Assembly: GCF_025698965.1 (NCBI RefSeq)
Contig: NZ_JAILWL010000014.1
Span: forward strand, 1 to 32,028
DNA from: Roseibium sp.
GTDB taxonomy: Bacteria > Pseudomonadota > Alphaproteobacteria > Rhizobiales > Stappiaceae
Direction of reading: 5' to 3'
Length of the DNA: 32,028 nt
This document shows, piece by piece, positions 86-23,775 of the stretch. A model generated the notes under the pieces. The model ran no database searches and had not been told where the DNA came from. It saw only the letters and a program-made list of their open reading frames with translations. A program made the position numbers and the translations under genes. Within the stretch, counting starts at the first letter, position 1, and each line of letters begins with the position of its first letter.

Positions 86-334
86 ATGCGTACGACTACT
101 GCCCTCGCGCTTTTAATGGCAATTTGTCCTGCGGCGGAAGCTTCAGCTCAAAAAGATTGGGATTCTGCACTGCGCGCTGAAACTGTGGAAGTGTTAGCTG
201 CGCAGGTCACTTTGCGAGATCGCCTGTCGAAACTGGGTGGAGTGCTGAAAGAGAACCAGGAAATGAAGCAAGTTGCCCAATGGAGTAACTGGCCCAACAT
301 TTGGCAGAACTGGCAGAATTGGGGGAACTGGTGA
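86..334 (+). CDS. Putative RiPP precursor peptide with Sec-like signal sequence and C-terminal W-x-N repeat core (…AQWSNWPNIWQNWQNWGNW)
   Basis: ATG at 86 preceded by GGAGG (77-81). N-terminus MRTTTALALLMAICPAAEASAQ resembles a signal peptide with an ASA-Q cleavage-like motif. Five W-x-N triads at the C-terminus, immediately upstream of a radical SAM/SPASM gene. Confidence 0.85.
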   Translation: MRTTTALALLMAICPAAEASAQKDWDSALRAETVEVLAAQVTLRDRLSKLGGVLKENQEMKQVAQWSNWPNIWQNWQNWGNW

Positions 335-339
335 TTCCA

Positions 340-1491
340 ATGTCGGCTCCGTCGCTTCTGATTTTGCAGCCGACGCCCTATTGCAACTTGAATTGCAGTT
401 ACTGCTACCTGCCGCATCGTGATCTTCGAAGTGTAATGAGCGAAGACGTTCTGCGCGCAATAGCGCGGTACATTCTTGCCCCGATGCCCAAGGCACAACG
501 ACCTGCAGTCATTTGGCATGCGGGCGAGCCCATGACGGTTCCCCCAAAATGGTATCACAACGCCTTTGAGCTGTTGCGGCGGGAGAGCGGGGGAACGCCT
601 TTGAACCATGGGTTTCAGACGAACGGTGTAGGCGTTACGGATCATTGGCTGAAGCTGTGGCAGGACTGGAACGTGCAAATCGGGGTGAGCCTTGACGGCC
701 CGGCCGAGTTTCACAATCGCCGCCGTAAGACGCGCCGGGGAACGGGTAGCCACGCATTGACAATGAAGGGGGTCGAAACCCTGAAGAGCGCGGGTTATCC
801 ATTCCACATCATTTCGGTTCTGACCACGGATATTTTGCCCCATCCGGAATTGCTGATCGAGTTCTATGCCGACAATGACCTGCATGACGTGGCCTTCAAT
901 ATTGAAGAAATAGAGGGGCAGACCGAGACCAGCAGTTTTGAAAATGATGATACTGCGGTTTCCCGGTACAGGCAGTTTTTGAAGCGTTTTTATGAATTAT
1001 CCGACCGTTTGCCGGTTCCCATCAATGTACGTGAACTGCAGAACGTGCAGTCACTGGCGGCAAACATGCGCAAGAACGGAATGCGAAACACTCAGAACAC
1101 GCCGCTGGCGATCGTAACGATTGCAGTTGATGGTGGCATGTCGACCTTTTCTCCCGAATTGATCGGCGTGACCGATCACGCGCGCGACAACTTCATATTC
1201 GCGAATGTTTGCGACGGCGGGGTTGAGCGAATTCTGTTGAGTCCTGCTTTTCAACAACTGAAGCGCGAGGTTGAGGAAGGCAAAAGGGCATGCGCGCGCA
1301 GCTGTGGTTACTTCGATGTCTGCGGGGGAGGAGCACCTGCCAACAAGTATTTTGAGCACGGTCGCTTCGATGGAACGGAAACGCTCTATTGCCAGCTGAC
1401 AATTCAGGCGAATGTTGATGTTGCGCTCGATTTCATGGAGCAGCGCTCGGGACGTGTTCCCGAGCAACCGCGTGAGATGGAGCTGCGATAA
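340..1491 (+). CDS. Radical SAM/SPASM peptide maturase, three-residue-cyclophane-forming type (GRRM/XyeB/FxsB-like)
   Basis: CNLNCSYCY radical SAM motif (CxxxCxxC) after LQPTPY. C-terminal SPASM-type CARSCGYFDVCGGGAPANKYF. Follows the precursor with a 5-bp gap (ATG 340) or GTGA overlap (GTG 331). The ORF track extends to a TTG at 301 inside the precursor, which is less likely. Confidence 0.88.
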   Translation: MSAPSLLILQPTPYCNLNCSYCYLPHRDLRSVMSEDVLRAIARYILAPMPKAQRPAVIWHAGEPMTVPPKWYHNAFELLRRESGGTPLNHGFQTNGVGVTDHWLKLWQDWNVQIGVSLDGPAEFHNRRRKTRRGTGSHALTMKGVETLKSAGYPFHIISVLTTDILPHPELLIEFYADNDLHDVAFNIEEIEGQTETSSFENDDTAVSRYRQFLKRFYELSDRLPVPINVRELQNVQSLAANMRKNGMRNTQNTPLAIVTIAVDGGMSTFSPELIGVTDHARDNFIFANVCDGGVERILLSPAFQQLKREVEEGKRACARSCGYFDVCGGGAPANKYFEHGRFDGTETLYCQLTIQANVDVALDFMEQRSGRVPEQPREMELR

Positions 1492-4400
1492 TGTGGGCAT
1501 GGCTCGGCAACCTGTTGAAAGGCCTTCGTCCAGCACTTTTGGGGCGGCTCGGTGACTGGGTTATGGTGCTGATCATGGTTGCTGTTGTCGGCGCAGTCAT
1601 TTTCGGGCGCCCGGTTTACGAATGGGGCATGACAAAGATCTCAGGCCCCCCGTTGTCTGGCGTTCTCTCGATCGAACCACCCCAGTTGTATACGCGTGAA
1701 AGATTGGTGAATGACCGGTTCAGTCAGGCAAACTGGCTGGAACAGTTGCTGGCCGAAACAAACAAGCCGGAAGTCCTTCGGGAAATCGGGCGCCCTACAA
1801 GTCAGTCTCGAACGGAAACGGAAGATTCCCTAAAGCTGATTGCAGCGTTGGCCGGCGGTGGTCCCGCTGCCGGGCCCGGCGCACCGAAAGATCAATCAAA
1901 ACGCGGTGAGACTGTCACATCATCCGCGCAGGTCTCAACATCTGGCGATAGCCCGGCGGCCAGTCTGGCTCAGCGAATTCGCGAATTGGACAAACTGCGC
2001 CTGCGTCTTCGCACCGACCTGATGGATACCTTGCTCGATGACGGTCATGACCTGGAGGGCAATACGCTCTACAGACTGAATTTTGATGCCGTCGTCATGC
2101 CTTTCAAGGAACAAACGACATATCCGGGAACCGGTGTGTTCATTGTCGAGATGGCAAATTCCTTTCAGGAACTGGACACTTACCTGGAAACCGCGGGTCA
2201 ATGCCTCGATGTGATCGACCAGGATGCCACCATGATAGAGGATTGTGAGGCAATTCGCGTCTTCCTCGAAAAGCGCTCGGCGGACGATGTCGAACTCCTG
2301 AGGTCATGGCAGCGTGAAATACAGCAGTTTCTGACAAGTGTGCTCCAAACCAGGTCGAAAGCCTTCAATTTCGAAGGCCGCCTGGTGAACCCCGTCGATC
2401 CCAAGGAAAATATAGCTTTTGACTGGTTTTTGAGGCGGGAACTGCTCAACGCGTTTTTCACGGCAATATCTTTTCATCCCAGAATAAAGCTCACCTGCGC
2501 AGAGTTCGGCCTGGAAGAAAGCGATTGTCTGAACAGAATTGCGGAAAGCATCGGTCTGAAATGGCGTGTCGAAAACCGGGTGCCTGACTTCGCCGATGAA
2601 CAAACAGGGGGAGGTGCACTTGGAAGCGGCTACAGAAAGTCGCTTAGGCGAGCACACTATGTGAACGCGGTTCGATATTCGGTTCAGAGAAATCTGGCAT
2701 TCGCCGGTCCGCCCGGACAAGGGCCGCCACCGGAAGCACAAGAACCGCAGGGACAGCTTGACGTCAGGCAGACAAGCGAACCTCCAAAACCAGGTGGGGA
2801 AGAATTTGCGCTGGCAAGCAATTCTCTCCCAAACGATGTCACAACAGGTGAAAGCAACACTACCGGTAAGCTGCCAAAAACGCGCAAGCCTGATGTTGCT
2901 CAGCGCCCTCGAAACGGGCCTCCACCTTCGGTGGGACCACCCCCGACCCTCCTCGATCCGGAATACAAGCGTGCGCTCATTCGTTTGATCTTGGTCTGGC
3001 GCGAGATGGCGGTTTTCATGCAGTCCATGACCGAACTGCCTGCGTCCGAAAAGGCGGCATTCGGCAGCGAAACTGAAGCAATTGCCGGTTTCGAACGGAA
3101 GTTGTTTGAAACTCTAATGAACTTCGACAGATATCTGCCGGGACCTGAGAATATCGGCGAACTTCAATCCGTTCTGAAAAGAGACTTTGATGTCCGTCAA
3201 CAGCATCTGGCGGCAACGGCTCATCTGCTCCCGCCGATGGAGGACGGTATCGAGCATTGCCGTAAATCTGCGGTGAAAAATCAACAGGCATCAATGCAGG
3301 CAGACGCCATCATAAGCGAGTATTATCGGTGTGCCTTCCTGTTCGTCGAAGGAGGTCGCGCAACGCATGATTTGCTGGCCAGATTTATCTACGAAAGATT
3401 GCGGGACGGCATACCCGGCTACGTATCAACAGAGCGGAGCATTACCGACTTTCTTGAAGTGACACTTGATGGATGCGCGGTAACGGGGTGCCAGATCGCG
3501 GTTTCTCAAAAACGCTGCAAACTCAAGAACGATATTCTGGAGTATACAGGAGAAGAGAGCTTTCTGGACACGGTCTGGCGTCAAATCGACCTCCCGTTCT
3601 CCAACGTATTCTGGGCTGTGCAAGAAGAGTTCGGAAACGATCCATCCGATTGCGACGAAATATTCCAAAGCGTCTCGGAAGATCCGGCGGCGGACGCCGT
3701 CGTGCAGAAATGTCTCACGCTGGTTGCTTTGCTGGATGACGAAATAACAGACATGTCGGAAGCCTATATCGCCTGCCATCTCAGGCAATGGATCGACACG
3801 CGCAAATCCGATGTCGCTGTTTATACGGTTAGTCCACGGGCAGGTGAGGGCGAGGATCTTGAACTGAATTCCGCAAGCCTGAAGGATGATCTGTCAGGTT
3901 TTCTCAAGCTGCCGGCCGGTAAGGGAGAGATTACGGCGCAACACAAGCAACTTCAGGACGTTGCGGCGGTGCTTTCAAATCCGTCTGTGATCGGGTTCAG
4001 CGACTTGCCAACCATCAAGGGTATCGACAATGCCATTTTTGGTTGGGCGGTGCGTCCCAATAAAATGCCTGCAGGCGGTTACATGTCGAGCCGGCACAGG
4101 TTTGCCGCGGTGATCAGTGTGCCGAGCTGGTGGAAACGCGTGACTTTGAACATCAAGGCTTGCTGGATTCAGCCCAATGAAATCAGGCGTTCCGGAACGC
4201 GTTTCCTGAATGACTTCACCAAGTTGTGTCCGGTGGCGGAACCCAAGACAATCGCTGCGCGGCTGCAGTCTCACGGCAGAGTGGTATCTGAAATCGACCA
4301 GGATACGCTTGCCTCTGAAAATCCGGTGACGCATTGGAGTTTTGAATTGAAGCTTCCAAGGCGGATGGATGAAATTACATCGAGGTTCAATTTCGATTTC

Positions 4401-4820
4401 ATCAAGGCGCCTTATTTTTATCCCGAATTTGATGAGACAGCGCAAAAAAACCCGTACGTTCTGGCTCTTGAGGCAGGGCGCCCCGGCAAGTTGGTCCTGT
4501 CAGGAGAACGGCTATGGCGCGGAACTGTCGTAACTGTCGGAAATCAACCTGCGGATCGAATAGAGGTTTTGCCCGACATGAAGGGCGTGATTGCACACTT
4601 CAACTGCGTTAAGCCGCCTGAAGGCAGCCGCCATTTTGAACCCATGAAGACAGGTGCATCCGGTCCGGCTTTTGGCCCCGGTGGCCTCGTCAATTCACCA
4701 CTCTTTGTCTGGACTTCTGAGGGAAGCACCAACATGAGATTTGTAAAAGTGGCTCCCTTTGTTCAGCGTATGGAAGCTGAGCGGCCCTGCTGGCTACCTG
4801 CCAACAGTGACGGAAACTGA
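1491..4820 (+). CDS. Large membrane-anchored protein of unknown function in the RiPP operon (single N-terminal TM, Pro-rich linker, C-terminal beta-like region)
   Basis: Start overlaps the rSAM stop (TAATG). N-terminal hydrophobic segment WVMVLIMVAVVGAVIFG preceded by K/R residues (N-in). Pro-rich segments GPPGQGPPPEAQEPQ and RPRNGPPPSVGPPP. Uninterrupted 1109-aa ORF. Confidence 0.85.
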   Translation: MWAWLGNLLKGLRPALLGRLGDWVMVLIMVAVVGAVIFGRPVYEWGMTKISGPPLSGVLSIEPPQLYTRERLVNDRFSQANWLEQLLAETNKPEVLREIGRPTSQSRTETEDSLKLIAALAGGGPAAGPGAPKDQSKRGETVTSSAQVSTSGDSPAASLAQRIRELDKLRLRLRTDLMDTLLDDGHDLEGNTLYRLNFDAVVMPFKEQTTYPGTGVFIVEMANSFQELDTYLETAGQCLDVIDQDATMIEDCEAIRVFLEKRSADDVELLRSWQREIQQFLTSVLQTRSKAFNFEGRLVNPVDPKENIAFDWFLRRELLNAFFTAISFHPRIKLTCAEFGLEESDCLNRIAESIGLKWRVENRVPDFADEQTGGGALGSGYRKSLRRAHYVNAVRYSVQRNLAFAGPPGQGPPPEAQEPQGQLDVRQTSEPPKPGGEEFALASNSLPNDVTTGESNTTGKLPKTRKPDVAQRPRNGPPPSVGPPPTLLDPEYKRALIRLILVWREMAVFMQSMTELPASEKAAFGSETEAIAGFERKLFETLMNFDRYLPGPENIGELQSVLKRDFDVRQQHLAATAHLLPPMEDGIEHCRKSAVKNQQASMQADAIISEYYRCAFLFVEGGRATHDLLARFIYERLRDGIPGYVSTERSITDFLEVTLDGCAVTGCQIAVSQKRCKLKNDILEYTGEESFLDTVWRQIDLPFSNVFWAVQEEFGNDPSDCDEIFQSVSEDPAADAVVQKCLTLVALLDDEITDMSEAYIACHLRQWIDTRKSDVAVYTVSPRAGEGEDLELNSASLKDDLSGFLKLPAGKGEITAQHKQLQDVAAVLSNPSVIGFSDLPTIKGIDNAIFGWAVRPNKMPAGGYMSSRHRFAAVISVPSWWKRVTLNIKACWIQPNEIRRSGTRFLNDFTKLCPVAEPKTIAARLQSHGRVVSEIDQDTLASENPVTHWSFELKLPRRMDEITSRFNFDFIKAPYFYPEFDETAQKNPYVLALEAGRPGKLVLSGERLWRGTVVTVGNQPADRIEVLPDMKGVIAHFNCVKPPEGSRHFEPMKTGASGPAFGPGGLVNSPLFVWTSEGSTNMRFVKVAPFVQRMEAERPCWLPANSDGN

Positions 4821-5144
4821 TATCCCCTCCATTATCGGTCCTTGAGATGCCACCGGTTGGCGAAAGGACAATCGGAAGCTTCTTGGCGTTTGCCGTCTCC
4901 CTTGCTTCCTCAGTGATCCGCTTCGTTTATTCAATACGATCAGGTGGCATATCAAAGTTACACACTCACGGGTCGACCTGGAAAATACACTCGTTCAACA
5001 GCGCAAATTGAATGGACGAAACACCCGCTTGCTCAATATGATAGGTTATGACGACGGCAAGGATACCGTCAGTCCGCATGCAATGTGAGATTCGCTGGCC
5101 GGCAGGACGGAAACTTGAGACGGTATTCCTTTGGGGAGGCAGTC

Positions 5145-5588
5145 ATGGCACATGACGATGAGTTTTCAGGATCTGACAATGGTCAGGACAATGATGCGCG
5201 AACCGGATCGAACGATGATGCGGAAGAAGCGATCGCGCAATTGTTTGACGACTACCAGGCTGGATTCAACGATTACGACGTTGACAGGATCTGTGATTGC
5301 TTTGCGATGCCAGCCACGATCTGGCAACACGAAAAGGGCCATGTCTTCAACAACGATGACGAACTGATCGAAAACATCGATGCGCTCTTGAAAGCTCTGG
5401 AAAAGGAAGGCGTTACGCATTCCGATTTCCACGTGAGCTCAAGTCATGTCAGTGGGTCGGCGGCCCTTGTGAGCCTGGACTGGACCCAGGAGACTGCAGA
5501 TGGCGAAGCAGTGTTCGAGTTCACGTGCCACTATCAGCTTGTTCAAAATGGTGCCGATTGGGTCATCGCCTGTATCATAAACGACTAG
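5145..5588 (+). CDS. NTF2/SnoaL-like domain protein
   Basis: ATG 5145 with GGGGAGG upstream. Sequence AIAQLFDDYQAGFNDYDVDRICDCFAMPATIWQ… resembles NTF2-like/DUF4440-type folds. The ORF track starts at GTG 5085. Confidence 0.7.
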   Translation: MAHDDEFSGSDNGQDNDARTGSNDDAEEAIAQLFDDYQAGFNDYDVDRICDCFAMPATIWQHEKGHVFNNDDELIENIDALLKALEKEGVTHSDFHVSSSHVSGSAALVSLDWTQETADGEAVFEFTCHYQLVQNGADWVIACIIND

Positions 5589-21964: not shown

Positions 21965-23143
21965 ATGACGCGCGACAGCGTTTTAGATCATGACGAGGAG
22001 ACGGCCGCAGTCTCGGAAGCGCGCCTTGCAAGCGTCTTCGATACAGCGGCCGATGGCATCGTCGTGATCAACGATCGTGGACAGATCCTGGCGTTTAACA
22101 AGGCCTGCGAACAGCTCTTCGGATATGAAGCCTCGGACCTTCTGGGTCGTGACGTCAGCCGGATCATGCCTGAACAATATGCCAAAGAGCATCACCACTA
22201 TGTCCAGAACTATCTGGACACGGGGGAAAAGAAGATCATTGGCATTGGCCGTGAGGTTCAGGCACGTCACAAGGACGGCACGGTGTTTCCGATCGAGTTG
22301 TCCGTTGGCGACGCTTCGACGCCATGCGGACGTCAATTCATCGGCATTTTGAGGGATTTGCGCCCCCGCAAGCAAATTGAAGACAGGCTTGCCAAAACGC
22401 AGGCTCAGCTTCTGCACATGACCCGCATCAGTGCGCTTGATGAAATGGGTGCTGCGATCGCTCATGAGCTCAATCAGCCCTTGACCGCCACGCTTCTTTA
22501 CTTGCAGACGGTATCCCGTAAGGTCAAAGCTGAAGAAAGCCTCGATCCCCTGATCCTTGAGGTGATCGACAAGGCCGTCCGCGAAGCTGAACGCGCGGGA
22601 GAAATTATCCAGCGTATGCGTCAGCTCGTCGAGAAGAAGGCACCGGAACGCCAGAAGATCAACGTACCTGATCTGGTTAAAACCTGCCTTGAGATGGCAG
22701 AGCTCGGCAATGGTGAAGCAAAATCCTGTTTCAGTGCGAAAGTCGAGCCGGACTTACCGCCATTGCAAGCCGATCCAGTTCAAATCCGGCAGATCCTGAT
22801 CAATCTCCTACGCAATGCGCGCGAAGCTGTCGCCGGACAGCCGGTCAAGAAGGTCACGCTGTCCGTTCAGCATGCAGACGACAGGCTGGAATTCCGGATT
22901 CAGGACAATGGACCCGGCGTGCCGAAGGAACTGGTCGCCGGTCTGTTCCGCGCCTTTACCGGCGCCAAGCACAAAGGTGTGGGCCTTGGTCTGGCAATTT
23001 CCAGATCGATTGCGCAGAACCATGGTGGTGATTTAAGACTGGAAGCATCGCAGGACGGCAACGGTGCGTCTTTTCTTTTGACGTTGCCTGTCAACCCGCC
23101 GGAAGACTTCAATGCAGGACCTCATGAAACGGTCGCTGAATAA
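21965..23143 (+). CDS. fixL: Oxygen sensor histidine kinase FixL-like (heme PAS, soluble)
   Basis: PAS with LFGYEASDLLGRDVSRIMPEQYAKEHHHYVQNYLDTGEKKIIGIGREV matches the FixL heme-PAS region (His in the …H.. Y motif and IGIGR Arg). H-box ALDEMGAAIAHELNQPLTA. Followed by fixJ. Confidence 0.88.
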   Translation: MTRDSVLDHDEETAAVSEARLASVFDTAADGIVVINDRGQILAFNKACEQLFGYEASDLLGRDVSRIMPEQYAKEHHHYVQNYLDTGEKKIIGIGREVQARHKDGTVFPIELSVGDASTPCGRQFIGILRDLRPRKQIEDRLAKTQAQLLHMTRISALDEMGAAIAHELNQPLTATLLYLQTVSRKVKAEESLDPLILEVIDKAVREAERAGEIIQRMRQLVEKKAPERQKINVPDLVKTCLEMAELGNGEAKSCFSAKVEPDLPPLQADPVQIRQILINLLRNAREAVAGQPVKKVTLSVQHADDRLEFRIQDNGPGVPKELVAGLFRAFTGAKHKGVGLGLAISRSIAQNHGGDLRLEASQDGNGASFLLTLPVNPPEDFNAGPHETVAE

Positions 23144-23163
23144 CTGGTAAGGATAAGACACAA

Positions 23164-23775
23164 ATGAATTCTGACGCGGAGGCCATTTACATCGTTGATG
23201 ATGACCCTGCGGTGCGCGATGCGCTGTCTGTGTTGTTCAACATGGAAGGATATGTGGTTGAAACCTTCTCCGACGGTGACACGTTCATCAAGTTCGCGAG
23301 CAAGGCGGTTCCGGCTTGCGTCATGCTGGATGTCCATATGCCGGGGCGGTCCGGGATCGAGATCCTGAAAGCTTTGAATGCGGAAAACTATCCTGCTCCG
23401 ATCTTTATCATTTCCGGGCAGGGGGACATTCCCATGGCGGTTGAAGCTATTCGGAACGGTGCTTTCGACTTCATCGAAAAACCGTTCTCTGCCGAAACGG
23501 TGCTGGAGCGGGTCCAGGACAGTATCAAGGCGATGAAGCAACGGGAGGAAGAACTCTCGACGCCGTCATTTCAGGGGGCGGAACTGTTGACGCGCCGCGA
23601 ATTGGAAGTGCTCAAGGAAATCACCGACGGCGCCTCCAACAAGGAAGCCGGACGTACATTGGGGATCAGTCCTCGAACCGTCGAAGTGCATCGGGCCCGT
23701 ATCATGGAAAAGCTCGGCGCCCGCAATGCCGCAGATCTCGTGCGAATCGTGCTGAGGCATCCGAACGCGGGATAA
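23164..23775 (+). CDS. fixJ: Response regulator FixJ-like
   Basis: IYIVDDDPAVRDALSVLF, LDVHMPGRSGIEIL, PFSAETVLERV and the LuxR HTH RRELEVLKEITDGASNKEAGRTLGISPRTVEVHRARIMEKLGARNAADLVRI. Directly downstream of fixL. Confidence 0.93.
   Translation: MNSDAEAIYIVDDDPAVRDALSVLFNMEGYVVETFSDGDTFIKFASKAVPACVMLDVHMPGRSGIEILKALNAENYPAPIFIISGQGDIPMAVEAIRNGAFDFIEKPFSAETVLERVQDSIKAMKQREEELSTPSFQGAELLTRRELEVLKEITDGASNKEAGRTLGISPRTVEVHRARIMEKLGARNAADLVRIVLRHPNAG

Follow-up and report, generated by a model that had tools for sequence, protein, structure and literature searches.

The window (the whole stretch of DNA analyzed, 32,028 nucleotides long) begins with three plus-strand genes, encoding a small precursor peptide, a radical SAM/SPASM maturase, and a 1,109-residue protein with a predicted membrane anchor, here called the giant (Table 1). 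The first-pass annotation had described three genes with tiny gaps or overlaps, and all three open reading frames (ORFs) were confirmed at the coordinates it gave. The precursor gene starts at an ATG preceded by GGAGG, and its stop codon (332 to 334) is overlapped by the alternative in-frame GTG start of the maturase; the maturase stop codon TAA (1489 to 1491) and the giant's ATG have one base in common. Base 1 of the window is also base 1 of contig C46, so genes 5′ of the precursor are not visible. The GC content of the cassette (0.52 to 0.54, versus 0.55) gives no foreign signature, and a promoter and terminator scan returned matches at chance level only. Placement of the same genome's only strong nSTAND1 match (contig C546) directly 5′ of the window was considered and not supported; no end overlap was found, and C546 is wholly internal to one gene with WD40-like repeats (by eye). 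Elsewhere in the window (21965 to 23775) lies a PAS-type sensor kinase-like and response-regulator-like pair with an ordinary FixLJ-like look (by eye).

Table 1. Features of the three-gene locus (window coordinates)
Feature	Position	Strand	Basis
Precursor peptide, 82 aa; secretion-signal-like N terminus, W-x-N repeat C terminus	86..334	+	Sequence; alignment with six GrrM-linked precursors
Sec-type signal peptide-like region, residues 1-21, MRTTTALALLMAICPAAEASA followed by QK, AxA site	86..148	+	Sequence, alignment; cleavage predicted
Core WSN-WPN-I-WQN-WQN-WGN-W, residues 66-82, five W-x-N triads	281..331	+	Permutation, alignment
Radical SAM/SPASM maturase, GrrM/OscB family, 383 aa from ATG 340 (alternative GTG 331)	340..1491	+	TIGR04261
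Radical SAM motif CNLNCSYC (C15, C19, C22)	382..405	+	Conserved in 14/14 aligned sequences
SPASM cysteines C318, C322, C328, C351 (auxiliary Fe-S site)	1291..1392	+	Conserved in 14/14 aligned sequences
Giant partner, 1109 aa, one N-terminal membrane helix, rest predicted extracytoplasmic	1491..4820	+	ORF, hydropathy, homologues, lipoprotein-anchored relatives
Predicted membrane helix of giant, residues 20-38	1548..1604	+	Hydropathy; sole fairly confident helix of a weak model
Family motif YTRERLVNDR, residues 67-76	1689..1718	+	Homologue comparison
Second N-terminal block LLDDGHDLEGNTLYRLNFDAVVMP, residues 181-204	2031..2102	+	Homologue comparison
C-terminal conserved block, residues 831-1038: IGFSD, ISVPSWWKR, RLWRGTVVTVG..ADRIEVLPDMKG	3981..4604	+	Homologue comparison

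Precursor and maturase

The five W-x-N triads (at W66, W69, W73, W76, and W79) stand in tandem within the last 17 residues of the precursor. Permutation of the whole protein gave at least five triads in 3 of 200,000 trials, and permutation of only the W/N/Q-rich last 22 residues gave five in 0.018% of trials; the tandem arrangement is thus not a composition effect. When the window precursor was aligned with six GrrM-linked precursors, A21 (the presumed signal-peptidase site) was invariant (7/7), as were Q65, N68, and N75; the core starts with Q[WF]-x-N, and the leader helix carries ADRI..IR in several relatives. The signal peptide is short and of only moderate hydrophobicity, and the precursor is probably exported via Sec. 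No meaningful match to the precursor was found in NCBIfam and Pfam. Since TIGR04260 (GrrA/OscA1; cut-off, 31) gave no match at an E value of 1, the window precursor is not a GrrA/OscA1 member by score; the G273 precursor (...QWYNWPNWRNGWNDWRNQRWFNYRR) reached 23.5 bits against the same cut-off. Other precursors were found in G065, from the genus of the window (...HLAQWYNWPNWGNWPNWGNWRNY), in G494 (...RIAQWLNHNTFDNFNNWYNY), on Phaeobacter plasmids (...QWLNSWSNWNNWSNWYKPWHNFSNYSWGNW), and, as an F-x-N version, in G369 (QFPNFPNFNNFPNF...). Separately, two actinobacterial loci (L012, 3852 to 4019; L013, 9085 to 9234) carry small ORFs just 3′ of a radical SAM gene, with W-D-N and F-D-N motifs, as candidate precursors (e.g., ...RPTWDNQGQRFDNRPTWDNWSK).

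The maturase belongs to the GrrM/OscB family: it scored 379.2 bits over the full profile of NCBIfam model TIGR04261 (cut-off, 310) and fell below the cut-off of each other cyclophane model (AmcB, YhhB, FxsB, XyeB, DynA, and DarE; NCBIfam). All seven expected Fe-S cysteines are present and are kept (7/7) across 14 aligned sequences. The score supports, at the level of predicted function, the first-pass proposal of a triceptide-type locus with a GRRM-like maturase. According to a review (PMC11002830), OscB makes i/i+2 links of two kinds, between Trp C7 and the C-beta of Asn or Asp and between Phe C4 and the C-beta of Asn. By extension from the family, up to five links (−10 Da) would be expected on the window precursor.

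Giant partner

The giant is strongly hydrophobic in one segment only (peak at residues 20 to 38; mean hydropathy, 2.46), which has basic residues ahead of it; from this an inner-membrane anchor is predicted, with the bulk of the protein outside the cytoplasm. Profile searches of Pfam, NCBIfam, and PDB gave no convincing match. The AlphaFold models of the giant (from single sequence; pLDDT, 35) and of its 112-aa C-terminal module (pLDDT, 38) were both unusable. The C-terminal block is possibly beta-rich and IPT/TIG-like; the IPT/TIG match, seen in a Vibrio relative, is weak (E value, 0.012, under its cut-off). A split STAND NTPase with the giant as its C-terminal half was considered and rejected, as there is no similarity.

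Across homologues, N-terminal blocks (YTRERLVNDR and LDDxHDxxGNTLYRLxFD) and C-terminal blocks (IGFSD, SVPSWWKR, LWRSTVVTVGSQxADxIxVLPDMKG, and VWTSEG) flank a variable middle, and in G273 the C-terminal module is duplicated. The family was defined by a membrane anchor, Y[TS]RERLxNDR, LDDxHDxxGN, and the C-terminal SVPxW, LWRxxxVTVG, and VLPxMxG blocks. The window giant has every one of these features; the motifs also occur in G273, G756, G705, G802 (start missing), and G494 (start only), and in looser form in three more distant members, from G1124, G1145 (another class), and Vibrio pMAO6. These three have lipobox-like starts (LSGC, LAGC, and LYGC, respectively) in place of the helix, so sequence signs of anchoring in the family are of two kinds, and the family appears extracytoplasmic whatever the anchor, independently of the window protein. 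Searches of plasmids, phages, and viral contigs with giants matched only one Vibrio plasmid.

These features bear on whether the giant could process or secrete the peptide (as a protease or export scaffold), as its operon position and the lack of another processing gene nearby might suggest. Neither Pfam nor NCBIfam gave a protease or transporter family match, the protein has a single membrane helix only, and homologues whose only attachment seems to be a lipid anchor cannot form a pore in the inner membrane; we regard such a function as very unlikely.

Occurrence and neighborhoods

The series precursor, GrrM, giant recurs in G494 (from a different family within the window's order), where the giant's ATG overlaps the stop codon of the maturase gene and the contig ends before the giant does. 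Two genomes of one genus in another order, G273 and G756, have the same series with a 251-aa gene between GrrM and giant, and neighboring genes overlap or adjoin throughout. The 251-aa gene (L066, 9612 to 10367, in G273; L080, 8969 to 9724, in G756; 64% identical) is of no known family. The expectation that a giant membrane-anchored partner would be conserved with the maturase was thus borne out in three genomes, and the three-gene set is conserved, though rarely. A class-wide sample (385 genomes) held GrrM in 5 genomes and the giant in 2, both giants alongside GrrM; an order-wide sample (298 genomes) held GrrM and the giant in 3 genomes each, with both present in 2.

The giant is not exclusive to the GrrM system. 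It was seen with no GrrM nearby in G705, G763 (beside a transposase-like gene), G760 (a fragment), G1124, and G1145; the giant of G802, which begins at a contig end, was not counted either way. Conversely, GrrM stands without a giant in G065, G369, G366, G444, and the Phaeobacter plasmids, and most genomes seen with GrrM have no giant. Since relatives without GrrM include lipoproteins in another class and a Vibrio plasmid protein, the giants read as a broad, predicted extracytoplasmic family captured by some GrrM operons. In the maturase tree, the window pairs with G494 (81/91) and G065 with G369 (85/92), both with moderate support; deeper branches are not resolved, so one or several captures are both compatible with it.

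Two further giant loci have other neighbors. In G705 (L059, 8023 to 10870), the solo giant is preceded by a small ORF for a secreted Cys-containing product (...CATPAGVCFINPQPIGTPCSCGQFQGTVIW), and an amidase-like gene lies close by. In G1145 (L099, 5741 to 10342), a 2-oxoglutarate-Fe(II) oxygenase gene follows the lipoprotein-like giant relative after 10 nt, possibly another pairing of a giant with a modifying enzyme.

Both kinds of solitary occurrence would fit a giant that is a passenger from a general surface-protein family, the working system being only precursor and GrrM, as at other GrrM loci. That reading is possible but doubtful in our judgment, as the genes keep their order, overlapping or adjoining, across three families and two orders, the maturase tree groups the window with G494, and both genes are so rare that a repeated chance neighborhood is unlikely.

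The G065 locus (L050, 3659 to 10233) has a TIR-domain gene (519 aa) and an nSTAND1 NTPase gene (a 1,247-aa ORF with a predicted membrane helix) directly upstream of the W-x-N precursor and GrrM, the precursor starting about 12 nt past the NTPase stop. Another family provides a second STAND-linked triceptide locus (G369; L067, 710 to 7386), with a 620-aa gene (TIR-like by eye, with no Pfam match) and an nSTAND1 NTPase gene directly upstream of an F-x-N precursor (L054, 1171 to 1455) and GrrM; these are the two nSTAND1-linked maturases that pair in the tree. By this parallel, the window locus might be a conflict module (defense or inter-bacterial) in which the triceptide is the effector and the giant, as sensor, immunity, or delivery part, plays the role of the TIR-like and nSTAND1 genes. 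For another NTP-dependent conflict system, modification of a peptide effector by a radical SAM enzyme has been put forward (PMC7159879), and the sporadic distribution also fits. Nevertheless, no STAND or TIR gene was seen at the giant loci (the upstream genes of G494 and G273 are unrelated, and the window ends there), the giant has no detectable similarity to nSTAND1 proteins, and PADLOC gave no meaningful match for the TIR and nSTAND1 genes, and a conflict role for the window locus seems improbable. The position of nSTAND1 directly ahead of both W-x-N and F-x-N GrrM loci does make triceptides as parts of conflict systems a testable idea.

The giant had also been proposed to replace the usual transporter or protease. 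That part of the first-pass reading was not upheld: the other alphaproteobacterial GrrM loci examined have no recognizable transporter or protease adjacent, and the giant is homologous to neither. On Phaeobacter plasmid pP18_a (L061, 7971 to 8974), a gene for a 220-aa secreted-looking protein overlaps the W-x-N precursor start upstream of grrM; this protein may be the partner in the Phaeobacter lineage. In Henriciella and Hyphomonas (L010 and L011), a GrrM-like radical SAM gene sits amid oxidoreductase-like, glyoxalase-like, and dioxygenase-like genes (by eye), with one gene weakly similar to peptide arginase (E value, 0.004), in what looks like a different RiPP cluster.

Proposed role

We give about even chances to a model in which the operon makes a triceptide that is exported by Sec and the giant is its dedicated periplasmic binding, scaffolding, or display partner. 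In the cytoplasm, the maturase would link each Trp, at C7, with the C-beta of the Asn at i+2, in up to five triads, as its family suggests. The precursor would then leave by Sec on its own signal peptide, with signal peptidase cutting between ASA and QK; a peptide with its own Sec signal would not require a dedicated transporter or protease. The giant, last to be translated and presumably coupled to the maturase through the start/stop overlap, would be anchored by its one helix in the inner membrane and expose about 1,070 residues to the periplasm, where linkage and topology suggest that it could meet the modified peptide as a receptor, scaffold, or display protein. Giants that occur without GrrM (G705 and the lipoprotein members) show that the family exists independently of this system, so the giant does not necessarily act on the peptide, and the unusable structure prediction puts no fold behind a binding role.

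A more specific form of the dedicated-partner model, in which a rod-like multi-cyclophane peptide is exported by Sec and then held and shown by the giant as a surface sensor or effector assembly, is speculative, and we would sooner bet against it; if true, W-x-N triceptides would be structural or signaling parts and not diffusible antibiotics. To our knowledge, the biological role of GrrM-type triceptides is not settled, and a protein partner fixed in the operon in separate lineages offers a concrete handle on it.

Comparison with known systems

A literature search, whose reach took in few of the subscription papers on triceptides, found no paper on this gene set. Among cyclophane-forming radical SAM/SPASM families, FxsB (TIGR04269) is distant by score (114.2 bits for the window maturase; cut-off, 370), and the window has no Fxs-type precursor. 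For XncB, of the XyeB family (TIGR04496), three-residue cyclophanes between Trp and Arg or Asn are reported, yet the window maturase reaches only 58.6 bits (cut-off, 450). The closest other cyclophane maturase model is AmcB (NF041718), at 286 bits, which is still under its cut-off of 425.

The nSTAND1-linked loci of G065 and G369 share the precursor and maturase type and have a large neighbor with a predicted membrane helix, but those neighbors are NTPases that show no similarity in sequence to the giant, and no giant was seen there. GrrP (TIGR04262), the periplasmic partner in GRRM systems (an adjacent orphan substrate-binding protein), has no NCBIfam match in the giant or the next gene (5085 to 5588); upstream genes lie beyond the contig start.

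GrrA/OscA1 (TIGR04260) shares a secretion-like leader and an aromatic-x-N core with the window precursor, which is likewise a small ORF beside GrrM with aromatic-x-N motifs but has no Gly-rich repeat and no TIGR04260 score; by its sequence it is a putative GrrA-like precursor without the Gly-rich repeat. Reported target motifs of OscB are W-x-N/D and F-x-N, and the window precursor offers W-x-N. The window maturase, like GrrM/OscB (TIGR04261), is over the family cut-off, so the first-pass description of the system as undescribed does not hold for the enzyme; it appears to hold for the giant, an anchored third-gene product of no named family that sets the window apart from GrrM/OscB systems. 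The locus appears to combine triceptide chemistry of a known kind with a new third partner.
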